A stretch of 64,000 nucleotides of DNA from Niabella sp. (GTDB taxonomy: Bacteria; Bacteroidota; Bacteroidia; Chitinophagales; Chitinophagaceae). The number at the start of each line of letters is the position of its first letter. Within the stretch, counting starts at the first letter, position 1. Below, piece after piece: positions 47,136 through 49,841 of the stretch. The notes below the pieces were generated by a model. It made no database searches. It had not been told where the DNA came from and saw nothing but the letters and a program-made list of their open reading frames with translations. Made by a program: the position numbers and the translations under genes. Where the stretch lies: positions 49,839 to 113,838 of the forward strand of contig JAPUDO010000019.1 in assembly GCA_027493055.1 (NCBI GenBank), written 5' to 3'.

Positions 47136-49841
47136 TTATAATAAATTTTTGACGGTTTCTATCACTTTCAGCAAATTGCCGGCATCCTGGCCACCGGCAG
47201 TAGCCAGTGTTTTTTGGCCGCCGCCACCGCCCTTAATTAACGGGGCAACGTGCTGTTTAATGATCTGGCCGGCGTCAAGACCTTTTGCCGCCACCACATT
47301 TTCCGCAATGCTTACCGCCACAAACGGCTTGCCCCCGATGTTGGCACAAAGCACCACTGCAAAATCTTTCAGGTGGTTTCTCAGGTCTGCACAAAGTTTC
47401 TTCAGCGCATCGGCATTGCTTACTTCCACTATATCTCCTATAAAGTTCACCTGGTTAATGATCTCGTCTTTATGCAACAGTCCATTACGGATGCCTACCA
47501 GCTCACGGGCCTCCAGGCGCTCTACATGCTTTTCAAGCGCTGCTTTCTCCGTTATAAGCTTTTCCACAGCTTTTATGGGGTCATTGGTTTTTAATAATTC
47601 ATTTAACGCTTTATTCTGGTTCAGGCGCTCATACATATACTGCAATGCCGCCGGCCCCGTAAGCGCTTCAATACGGCGCACGCCTGCTGCAACGGCTGAT
47701 TCGCCGGTAATGACAAACAGGCCAATCATCCCGGTATGCAGCACGTGGGTACCACCGCAAAGCTCCACACTAAAAGGAATTGCTTCCGCTTCTCTGCTCC
47801 CGGGGGAGAAAGTGTCCCGCACTGACGGAACGGATGAAGGCTGGGAATCAATGGTAACCACTCTTACCACATCACCATATTTTTCGCCAAATAAAGCCAT
47901 CGCTCCCAATTTGAGCGCTTCCTCTTTGGGCATTTCCCTGATTGTCACCGGCAGGTTTTCCCTGATCTTATCATTTACAATACGCTCCACCTGGCGCAGC
48001 TCATCATCTGTAATTTTTGCAAAATGCGATACGTCAAAACGCAGCACATCCGGAGAAACCAGCGAGCCCTTCTGATTTACATGCACTCCCAGCACCTGCT
48101 TTAAGGCCGCATGTAATAAGTGCGTTGCGGTGTGATTGTAAGTGGTGTACACCCTTTTTTCCGTATCCACAATGGCTCTTAAAGGCTGATCAATATTTCC
48201 GGGAAGCCTGTCCGTAAAATGTATGATCAGGTCATTCTCCTTCTTTGTATCAGTAATCATTAATTCTTCATCATTAATGATTAATTTCCCTTTATCCCCT
48301 ACCTGCCCGCCGCTTTCAGCATAAAAAGGCGTTTTTTCCAGAACCAGCTGGTACTGCTCTTTACCTTTTGCTGAAACCTTGCGGTACCTGGTTACCCTGG
48401 TGCCTGTGTTCAGGTCTTCGTATCCTACAAATTGGGAAGGCACCTCTTCTCCCACCAAAATCCAGTCTTCAGTATCCACGGCCGTTGCAGCACGGGAGCG
48501 TTCTTTCTGCTGTTTCATTTCGGCCTCAAAACCCTCCTCGTCTACAGTAAGATTATTTTCAGACGCAATCAGCCGGGTAAGATCTGCCGGGAAACCATAA
48601 GTATCATACAGCTCAAAAGCATCTTTTCCATTTATATGGCCTCCACTTGCTGACTTAATGATATCATCAATTCTCTTTAACCCTTTTTCCAAGGTGCGCA
48701 GGAAGGAATCTTCCTCTTCCTTAATCACTTTTGTAACAAAAGCTTCCTGCTGCTTTAATTCGGGGAATACCTGCTCAAACTGGGCTGCTATTACCGGTAC
48801 CAACTGACTGAGTAAAGGCTGCTTATAATCTAAATAAGAGTAATAATACCGAACAGCACGACGTAAAATACGTCGGATCACATAGCCCGCTCCTGTATTG
48901 GACGGTAACTGCCCGTCGGCAATAGTAAAGCTGATGGCACGTATATGATCTGCCAGAACACGGAAGGCGACAGCCTCCCCCCAACCCCCTCCGAGGAAGG
49001 GGGAGCTAACGGCCGCAGCATTATATTTCCGCCCCGTTATCTTTTCCACTTCTGCTATAGTACCTGTAAAAACATCGGTATCATAGTTGCTGGTTTTGCC
49101 CTGCAATACGCGAACCAGCCGTTCAAAACCCATACCGGTGTCTACGTGCCTGGCAGGCAGTGGCTCCAGGCTGCCGTCTTTTTTCCTGTTGAACTGGATA
49201 AATACATTATTCCATATTTCTATTACCTGCGGATGATCAGCATTTACAAGTGTTTTGCCATCAACAGCCGCTCTTTCTTCAGCCGGGCGGCAGTCTATAT
49301 GTATCTCTGAACAGGGGCCGCAGGGGCCGGTATCGCCCATCTCCCAGAAATTATCTTTTTTATTTCCTTTCAGGATCCTTTCAGGATTTATCCATTTCGC
49401 CCATTCATTGTAGGCTTCCTGGTCAAAAGGCAGGCCTTCTTTTTCATCTCCTTCAAAAACAGTTACATACAGGCGGTCTTTATCAATTTTGTAAACTGAT
49501 GTAAGCAATTCCCAGCTCCACTCAATGGCTTCTTTTTTAAAGTAATCCCCAAAGCTCCAGTTACCCAGCATTTCAAACATGGTATGGTGATAAGTATCCA
49601 CGCCTACTTCTTCCAGGTCGTTATGTTTACCGCTTACGCGCAGGCACTTTTGGGTATCGGCTACACGGGAGTACGGACTTTGCTTATTGCCCAGGAAATA
49701 GTCCTTGAACTGGTTCATGCCCGCATTGGTGAACATAAGCGTAGGGTCGTTCTTTATAACAATAGGTGCGGAAGGAACTATATGGTGGCCTTTGCTTTTA
49801 AAAAAATCAAGAAACTGCTGTCTTATTTCACTGCTGGTCAT
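47136..49841 (-). CDS. alaS: Alanine-tRNA ligase
   Basis: 901 residues, slightly longer than usual. The class II core begins IRQQFLDFFKSKGHHIVPSAPI; the editing domain has HTATHLLHAAL and the metal motif CGGTHV; the C-Ala domain ends in GGGGGQKTLATAGG. Between ITGRKYN and FRVLADHIRAISF there are about ten extra residues (VSSPFLGGGWGEA) that coincide with a palindromic repeat in the DNA. The insert sits near the end of the aminoacylation domain. The gene has its own promoter and terminator. Confidence 0.97.
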   Translation of the reverse strand: MTSSEIRQQFLDFFKSKGHHIVPSAPIVIKNDPTLMFTNAGMNQFKDYFLGNKQSPYSRVADTQKCLRVSGKHNDLEEVGVDTYHHTMFEMLGNWSFGDYFKKEAIEWSWELLTSVYKIDKDRLYVTVFEGDEKEGLPFDQEAYNEWAKWINPERILKGNKKDNFWEMGDTGPCGPCSEIHIDCRPAEERAAVDGKTLVNADHPQVIEIWNNVFIQFNRKKDGSLEPLPARHVDTGMGFERLVRVLQGKTSNYDTDVFTGTIAEVEKITGRKYNAAAVSSPFLGGGWGEAVAFRVLADHIRAISFTIADGQLPSNTGAGYVIRRILRRAVRYYYSYLDYKQPLLSQLVPVIAAQFEQVFPELKQQEAFVTKVIKEEEDSFLRTLEKGLKRIDDIIKSASGGHINGKDAFELYDTYGFPADLTRLIASENNLTVDEEGFEAEMKQQKERSRAATAVDTEDWILVGEEVPSQFVGYEDLNTGTRVTRYRKVSAKGKEQYQLVLEKTPFYAESGGQVGDKGKLIINDEELMITDTKKENDLIIHFTDRLPGNIDQPLRAIVDTEKRVYTTYNHTATHLLHAALKQVLGVHVNQKGSLVSPDVLRFDVSHFAKITDDELRQVERIVNDKIRENLPVTIREMPKEEALKLGAMALFGEKYGDVVRVVTIDSQPSSVPSVRDTFSPGSREAEAIPFSVELCGGTHVLHTGMIGLFVITGESAVAAGVRRIEALTGPAALQYMYERLNQNKALNELLKTNDPIKAVEKLITEKAALEKHVERLEARELVGIRNGLLHKDEIINQVNFIGDIVEVSNADALKKLCADLRNHLKDFAVVLCANIGGKPFVAVSIAENVVAAKGLDAGQIIKQHVAPLIKGGGGGQKTLATAGGQDAGNLLKVIETVKNLL
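48972..49006. repeat. Palindromic repeat inserted in frame in alaS
   Basis: The 35-bp stretch reads AGCCTCCCCCC...AAGGGGGAGCT on the plus strand, with an inner CCCCCT/AGGGGG pair around CCGAGGA. It has the form of a G/C-rich intergenic repeat, is far more G-C-skewed than flanking coding DNA, and encodes extra residues absent from typical AlaRS. Confidence 0.7.

Follow-up and report, generated by a model that had tools for sequence, protein, structure and literature searches.

A short dispersed palindromic repeat of Bacteroidota is found in protein-coding genes of Chitinophagaceae in a preferred codon phase

The gene alaS of Niabella sp., a member of the Chitinophagaceae (phylum Bacteroidota), which encodes alanine--tRNA ligase (AlaRS), contains a 36-bp palindromic element that is read in frame as twelve codons. 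Here, we describe this element, which was identified in a stretch of 64,000 nucleotides (referred to below as the window; assembly GCA_027493055.1, contig JAPUDO010000019.1, positions 49,839 to 113,838 of the forward strand). Copies of the same DNA are dispersed in this genome and in other genomes of the phylum, and in Chitinophagaceae the copies found inside genes are, with few exceptions, read in a single codon phase. The element is probably a short selfish palindrome that is tolerated in protein loops since one of its readings is a neutral linker. According to this model, the alaS unit would be one copy of a short dispersed palindromic repeat of Bacteroidota, which is spread as DNA by a process acting in trans and which, in Chitinophagaceae, would have entered many genes, essential ones among them. 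A copy inside a gene would stay in the mRNA and be translated. It would survive where it falls in a variable loop and the linker encoded in its phase is small, polar and either uncharged or slightly acidic, i.e., S-P-S-x-G-G-G from the hairpin on either strand and G-E-A from the tail on the sense strand, while RR-rich phases would be removed by purifying selection.

A search of the genome (131 contigs, 5.75 Mb) with the alaS stretch yielded four further copies of 32-35 bases with 85-88% identity (E ≤ 0.003). A covariance model, built from 16 copies of this and congeneric genomes, identified 24 copies at E ≤ 0.01, a number that rises to 48 at E ≤ 10; scores reach 54 bits. The proposal made in the initial annotation of the window would have been refuted had the unit occurred nowhere else in the genome, and these searches located counterparts. 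It had also likened the unit to intergenic palindromes; copies are indeed found outside long open reading frames (ORFs), but 14 of the 24 stricter matches (E ≤ 0.01) are genic (9 sense, 5 antisense), all of them in the codon phase referred to below as phase 0. The length variation of the AlaRS loop, seen also in the structure 4xem, would be compatible with a low-complexity linker that is native to the protein and arose in situ. This reading is refuted by the dispersal of the DNA identity, i.e., by the occurrence of the same DNA, at the identity and scores given above, in unrelated genes and outside long ORFs, and we regard it as exceedingly improbable.

Copies of the repeat consist of a stem CCCCCTCC/GGAGGGGG with a 3-base loop, a spacer of 2-3 bases and a tail GGGGGAGGC, at a length of about 33-40 bp. 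Related repeat types carry the tails GGGGTGAGG or GGGGAGAGG. A control with a reversed pattern is invalid for this element because GGAGGGG..GGGGAGG is nearly mirror-symmetric, such that the reversed form finds the same kind of site; the covariance model was relied on instead. Within the genus, 8 of 17 genomes (the present one included) harbor 1 to 57 copies at E ≤ 0.01: 24 in the present genome (G000), 57 in G007 and 10 in G015. Matches at E ≤ 0.001 were found in 72 of 195 genomes of the family and in 113 of 395 genomes of a phylum sample; here the best first-look candidates per genome (35 and 17, respectively) were scored, and the copy numbers are therefore lower bounds. The repeat is thus phylum-wide and, on the samples used, its colonisation of genes is strongest in Chitinophagaceae. 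Best copies are genic in 17 of 29 family genomes versus 6 of 29 loci in other families (Fisher p 0.007), and the difference persists when the further family sample described below is included (49 of 89, p 0.0013). Seven of the ten copies in G015 (contigs C1, C8, C9, C10 and C13) were inspected; these are near-identical, lie outside long ORFs and belong to the type CTCCCTCTCCGTGAGGAGAGGGCTGGGGTGAGG.

Codon phase was called at the 3' end of each copy within the longest ORF, counted from stop to stop, that spans 200 codons or more and contains the copy with margins of 30 codons. Three sets of copies from Chitinophagaceae were considered. For the present genome, 44 of the 48 model matches were used, omitting four below 15 bits (L197-L200); 23 of these are genic, and phase 0 is found for all 17 sense copies and for 5 of the 6 antisense copies. 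Among the best copies of 29 family genomes (17 genic), the corresponding numbers are 10 of 13 and 3 of 4. A set of 60 further family copies was picked by hand from the match listing before the sequences were seen, with G180 limited to three copies and with rows such as G170:C11, G094:C120, G094:C362, G118:C40, G107:C12, G059:C193 and G059:C195 passed over; here, 32 copies are genic, with phase 0 in 23 of 23 sense and 7 of 9 antisense cases. The 57 copies of G007 were kept out of the count because alaS and other genes of that genome show breaks. For Chitinophagaceae in total, phase 0, in which the 3' end reads G-E-A, is used by 50 of 53 sense copies; the matching phase is used by 15 of 19 antisense copies. 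When copies were clustered into 55 sites, phase 0 remained prevalent on the sense strand (39 of 42; binomial p 9e-16 against 1/3 and 3e-9 against 1/2) and on the antisense strand (9 of 13, p 0.009). The total of 55 sites is an undercount because clustering lumps some distinct positions in LeuRS and other proteins. In the 60-copy sample, the share of copies in long ORFs was 19 of 28 for the tail GGAGG, 9 of 21 for TGAGG, 2 of 9 for AGAGG and 2 of 2 for other tails.

Stop codons do not explain this lock because most phase-0 sites are open in other phases too: of the 39 sense sites, 28 are free of stops in three phases and 11 in two. In phase 0 the hairpin loop makes up one codon, and both strands therefore read similar S-P-S-x-G-G-G; the sense-strand tail is read as G-E-A, and peptides such as LPLLRRG or PPPSEG result from the other sense phases. 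Listed with their mean charge and the number of copies that use them, the six readings are sense 0 (-0.74; 50), antisense 0 (-0.32; 15), antisense 2 (-0.05; 4), sense 2 (+1.00; 2), sense 1 (+1.51; 1) and antisense 1 (+2.00; 0). The rank in usage matches the order in charge, as predicted for selection at the level of the peptide, in a comparison that is post hoc and comprises six classes only. Selection for a neutral linker would be the simplest account of the lock.

At E ≤ 0.01 the host proteins in the present genome are AroA, IspG, a DUF255 protein, AlaRS, LeuRS, an HlyD-type adaptor, ArgC, UvrA, MiaB, IleRS, PurH, TrpA, HolB and CarB, and one such copy is also found at the N-terminus of the ORF of a heptose-phosphate guanosyltransferase (HddC, L164). 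Weaker matches add GcvP (E 0.014), PurL (E 0.036), a GH2 enzyme (E 0.06), a GH115 enzyme (E 0.3), a RapZ-C protein (about 15 bits) and RmlB (E 8), as well as copies that, by position, are second ones in the same ORF, i.e., in HolB (E 0.01), LeuRS (E 0.2), UvrA (E 0.85) and IleRS (E 3). Names were assigned by a profile check of 21 host ORFs of the present genome, where AroA, IspG, LeuRS, ArgC, UvrA, MiaB, IleRS, PurH, TrpA, CarB, GcvP, PurL and RmlB scored above the curated cut-off; HolB was named by Pfam DNA_pol3_delta2 and falls below the NCBIfam cut-off. Names in the family sample (LeuRS, MetRS, GcvT and others) were given by eye. Random positions in the loci of these own-genome copies meet the ORF criterion in about 66% of cases versus 23 of 44 copies. 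Genic placement is thus not much below chance, unlike that of ordinary repetitive extragenic palindromic sequences (REPs), and a somewhat lower genic share would be expected if badly read insertions are lost.

Orthologues of the hosts were aligned from G016 (a single contig, copy-free at E ≤ 0.01), G007 and G015. In segments of about 150 amino acids, all 21 hosts of the present genome exceed their G016 counterparts by 1 to 30 residues, a range that also counts changes outside the insert; HddC was left out of this comparison because its element is N-terminal. Some loops are struck recurrently, often by a different copy. G000, G007 and G012 have this in common for UvrA and GcvP, G000 and G007 for IspG, AroA, MiaB and the RapZ-C protein. 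Genomes of other genera share such loops as well, G101 that of the DUF255 protein and G028 that of the RapZ-C protein. Two side observations were made by eye. LeuRS seems to serve as a host again and again in different genera, with copies at several positions, the editing domain among them (L157, L186, L293, L294, L297, L350, L352 and L373). The PurH segment with the gain of 30 residues relative to G016 (purH, L167) contains nearby what appears to be a second, decayed element, SQTPPSGDGW.

A number of these results weigh against a selfish palindrome kept as a neutral linker. Outside the family no lock is seen: at the six genic loci found there, phase 0 is used by two of the four sense copies and by neither of the two antisense copies. 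An excess of third-position changes in genic copies is not clear (diversity 0.18, 0.30 and 0.29 at the three positions versus 0.15, 0.19 and 0.24 in non-genic copies). Several hosts rest on weak matches (GcvP, PurL, RmlB and the second copies in LeuRS, UvrA and IleRS), and in the search for a mobilising enzyme, where Y1_Tnp was the candidate examined (see below), none was found. The net gain is also not a constant 12 residues (HlyD +1, GH115 +2, PurL +4, AroA +5 at the insert and +15 across a longer segment, alaS +9). A clean insertion of 12 codons alone does not account for this variation; hence, residues of the host loop were lost too, or insertion replaces sequence.

The latter alternative is linked to the question of whether the lock originates from the insertion mechanism, through a codon-periodic target or an in-register template switch between in-gene copies, rather than from selection on the peptide. 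The near completeness of the lock on the sense strand would fit such a mechanism, as would the net gains other than 12 residues, which suggest replacement of host sequence, and the repeated strikes on the same loops of the DUF255 protein (G000, G101) and the RapZ-C protein (G000, G007, G028) in different genera. However, base composition of the flanks shows no strong target motif within 15 bases on either side, and the 3' end keeps its phase even though element lengths vary and the hosts are unrelated. Furthermore, a mechanism that is blind to the peptide is not expected to produce a usage order that tracks peptide charge. We consider a lock set by the mechanism alone rather unlikely. A more far-reaching proposal would be that the phylum-wide mobile palindrome has turned into a mobile linker in Chitinophagaceae, with a dyad axis in mid-codon and both strands neutral, which spreads in essential genes on either strand as translated selfish DNA and lengthens the same loops repeatedly; in its boldest form the lock would be set at insertion, with loop sequence replaced in codon register. 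We offer this proposal tentatively, as a possibility that we hold to be doubtful.

The alaS unit (Table 1) reads, on the gene strand, AGC TCC CCC TTC CTC GGA GGG GGT TGG GGG GAG GCT, i.e., SSPFLGGGWGEA. A palindromic repeat in frame within alaS had been proposed on initial annotation, with a length of 35 bp; the covariance model places the unit where proposed, and the length is 36 bp. The E-value of the alaS copy is not independent because this copy is part of the model. An alternative pairing is that of the tail GGGGGAG with CTCCCCC at 48999-49005. The pattern CCCCCNNCCCCCNNNGNRGGGGGNG, which was written post hoc, occurs once in the window with up to two mismatches and in none of 100 dinucleotide shuffles, and the covariance model finds no second copy within the 64-kb window at E ≤ 10. 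A repeat search of the locus with arms of at least 8 bases did not report the alaS palindrome because its arms are imperfect, and there is no Rfam family match at E ≤ 1 in positions 48800-49200 of the window.

Table 1. Positions of alaS and of the parts of its palindromic unit in the window
Feature	Position	Strand	Evidence
alaS, alanine--tRNA ligase, 901 aa, host gene	47136..49841	-	Pfam tRNA-synt_2c, tRNA_SAD and DHHA1 matches
36-bp palindromic element, 12 codons SSPFLGGGWGEA, residues 279-290	48972..49007	-	covariance model, phase counts
Inner hairpin, 5' arm CCCCCTTC (gene strand)	48996..49003	-	sequence; stem register from aligned copies
Three-base loop CTC, exactly one codon; dyad axis in mid-codon	48993..48995	-	
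Inner hairpin, 3' arm GGAGGGGG	48985..48992	-	
Spacer TT and conserved tail GGGGGGAGGCT, last codons G-E-A	48972..48984	-	

Among the best 80 named records, the AlaRS of Niabella pedocola is nearest to the alaS product, with 79% in the best-matching segment. The linker between KY and (V/I)AFRV comprises 17 residues in the Niabella sp. protein versus mostly 8 (KKYDFSDSREAIAFRV) in relatives, i.e., a net gain of 9, and the residues AAAV directly before the unit are likewise absent from aligned relatives. The earlier suggestion of about ten extra residues relative to a short linker therefore holds for the comparison with most relatives, but not every relative is short: longer, different linkers are found in L011, L081, G015, G012 and G004. 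Aligned relatives do not carry the same residues encoded by unrelated codons, which had been envisaged initially as a test of the repeat. The covariance model finds no copy inside alaS when 80 such loci from the named collection are scanned (at E ≤ 0.1 there are two matches, which lie upstream of the gene in L020), and none at this alaS loop in 19 loci of other members of the genus (two weak matches elsewhere, E 0.35 and 3.2). In two congeneric genomes the same loop contains other sequences, SPSPHMDKGSGDEEAF in G012 (L147), which resembles the TGAGG type, and LPNPSGGLLGE in G004 (L134), apparently antisense. Judged by eye, these inserts look like decayed copies of other element types, to which the covariance model gives no score.

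An AlphaFold model, calculated with 39 AlaRS sequences, has a mean predicted local distance difference test (pLDDT) score of 81.7 and a predicted template-modelling (pTM) score of 0.54, and because of the latter it was read locally only. Residues 280-285 have pLDDT values below 50 and are located between the helices 275-279 and 287-308. In this model, the insert is predicted to form a low-confidence loop, where the GEA end starts the next helix. The structure 4xem of a cytoplasmic AlaRS, presumably the human enzyme, has a long, unrelated linker at the same place. In hosts other than AlaRS, the element would similarly occupy loops.

A different possibility is that the hairpin is kept for a role at the RNA level, such as slowing of ribosomes at loops or tuning of mRNA stability, such that the location in coding sequence would be adaptive. 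The C/G-rich stems in long housekeeping ORFs and the copies held by the same loops in other genera would agree with such a role, but orthologues in copy-free genomes manage without the hairpin, and the alaS inserts of G004 and G012 appear to be decayed versions. Nor is the fold of the alaS copy clearly more stable than that of shuffled sequences. For RNA, the calculated energy is -23.2 kcal/mol versus a shuffle mean of -18.9 kcal/mol (z -1.48; 14 of 200 shuffles as good), and the DNA fold is also not clearly above shuffles (z -0.92); there is no clear excess because a sequence composed of a C-run and a G-run folds anyway. A role of the hairpin in the RNA is very unlikely.

Palindromes within protein-coding sequence are best known from Rickettsia, an intracellular group, where the Rickettsia palindromic elements (RPE) were reportedly described by Ogata et al. 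in 2000 and 2002. The initial annotation had pointed to this precedent, and as an analogy it is apt: in both cases palindromes are dispersed in the genome, lie in frame in genes of conserved proteins, are extra relative to orthologues and occur at the same sites in orthologues. By length and motif, the element described here appears to be analogous to RPE and not itself an RPE. The RPE length is given as 100-150 bp in the part of PMC3767692 consulted, versus 36 bp here, and the ATGAC motif of RPE-4, -6 and -7 is absent from the element and its aligned copies. The repeats also differ in phylum, and here a single codon phase is used even though most copies lack stops in every frame. RPE inserts are reported to be solvent-exposed in the sections seen of PMC6649704 and PMC3767692, to be compared with the low-confidence loop between helices in the alaS model.

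The GTAG/CGTC REPs, as described in the portion of PMC3733652 available to us, resemble the element in being 20-40 bp stem-loops with many copies, some of which are found in ORFs including uvrA and tRNA synthetase genes. These REPs are mostly intergenic, and the text seen of that paper gives no codon-phase rule. Aligned copies of the present element are devoid of the GTAG end. The CGTC REPs have a CGTC (or TGTC/CCTC) tag, a stem of 8-9 bp that starts with AT pairs and a loop of 4-5 bases (PMC3733652, same portion), whereas the stem CCCCCTCC/GGAGGGGG does not start with AT pairs, the loop has 3 bases and the CGTC tag is lacking; CCTC occurs in the reverse complement of the tail. In the same portion of PMC3733652, Bacteroidetes are named once, for CGTC repeats. 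The coding palindromes of nematomorph mitochondria (PMC6649704, seen in part) also lie inside protein genes. They are described there as perfect repeats of up to 284 bp with arms that encode conserved residues, and they do not amount to a family built on one dispersed sequence. Enterobacterial RU sequences (PMC2759123, seen in part) are likewise small mobile repeats that run into ORFs and are set apart, by that description, by their length of 103-168 bp and their likeness to miniature inverted-repeat transposable elements.

As had been supposed from the outset, we found no standard description of such a repeat in this phylum in the open-licence literature, where subscription papers may differ, and in the same literature we met no earlier description of a codon-phase rule that goes beyond stop codons. 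In Bacteroidota, a shorter palindrome with another motif behaves like those of Rickettsia, with genomes mostly of 2-7 Mb, and in genes that are hardly dispensable. The copies make up a natural series of inserts of about 12 codons (AlaRS, LeuRS, IleRS, UvrA, TrpA and others) with insert-free orthologues, in which uptake of new loops can be tested and which bears on how translation may shape a DNA repeat. They also caution against taking such stretches, where they occur in public protein records, for ancestral sequence.

As a candidate for the mover, we considered a transposase of the REP-associated tyrosine transposase (RAYT) type with a Y1_Tnp domain, encoded in the same genome, in which case the unit would be a REP. 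Six Y1_Tnp genes are found in the present genome, and 144 of 195 family genomes have a match. They are somewhat more common in genomes with the element (60 of 72 versus 84 of 123, Fisher p 0.028), with a Spearman coefficient of 0.36 between the counts. However, among 35 Y1_Tnp loci that were scanned (29 of the family, namely the subset of its matches for which a locus was given, and 6 of the present genome), one has a copy (L325), on one side and about 600 bases off, in contrast to RAYT-borne REPs and REP doublets forming hairpins (REPINs), where the RAYT gene is flanked by the element. No copy was found by the covariance model at the six loci of the present genome, and the genes L089, L091 and L094 have other hairpins close by. 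Y1_Tnp matches are missing from twelve of the 72 genomes that carry the element, including G028 (19 copies; 72% complete), G067 (9), G155 (8; single contig), G195 (5) and G039 (5), and the element is without a GTAG or CGTC tag. The link to Y1_Tnp as the mover was thus tested and is not supported, and mobilisation by a RAYT of the same genome seems improbable.

Other observations concern the Y1_Tnp genes themselves. In L094 (contig C23, 74025-74258, of the present genome), Y1_Tnp is encoded in a 231-codon ORF with the hairpins CTGCGAAACTTAAAGTTTCGCAG and CTTCGGGACTTGCAGTCCCGAAG on both sides, and this locus has the appearance of a classical REPtron that belongs to a different repeat family. The Y1_Tnp gene of L089 (contig C53, 46630-46974) has the hairpin TTTGTCCCATAGGGACAAA on both sides. 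In G015, eight equal-scoring Y1_Tnp matches are apparently copies of one IS200-like transposase gene.

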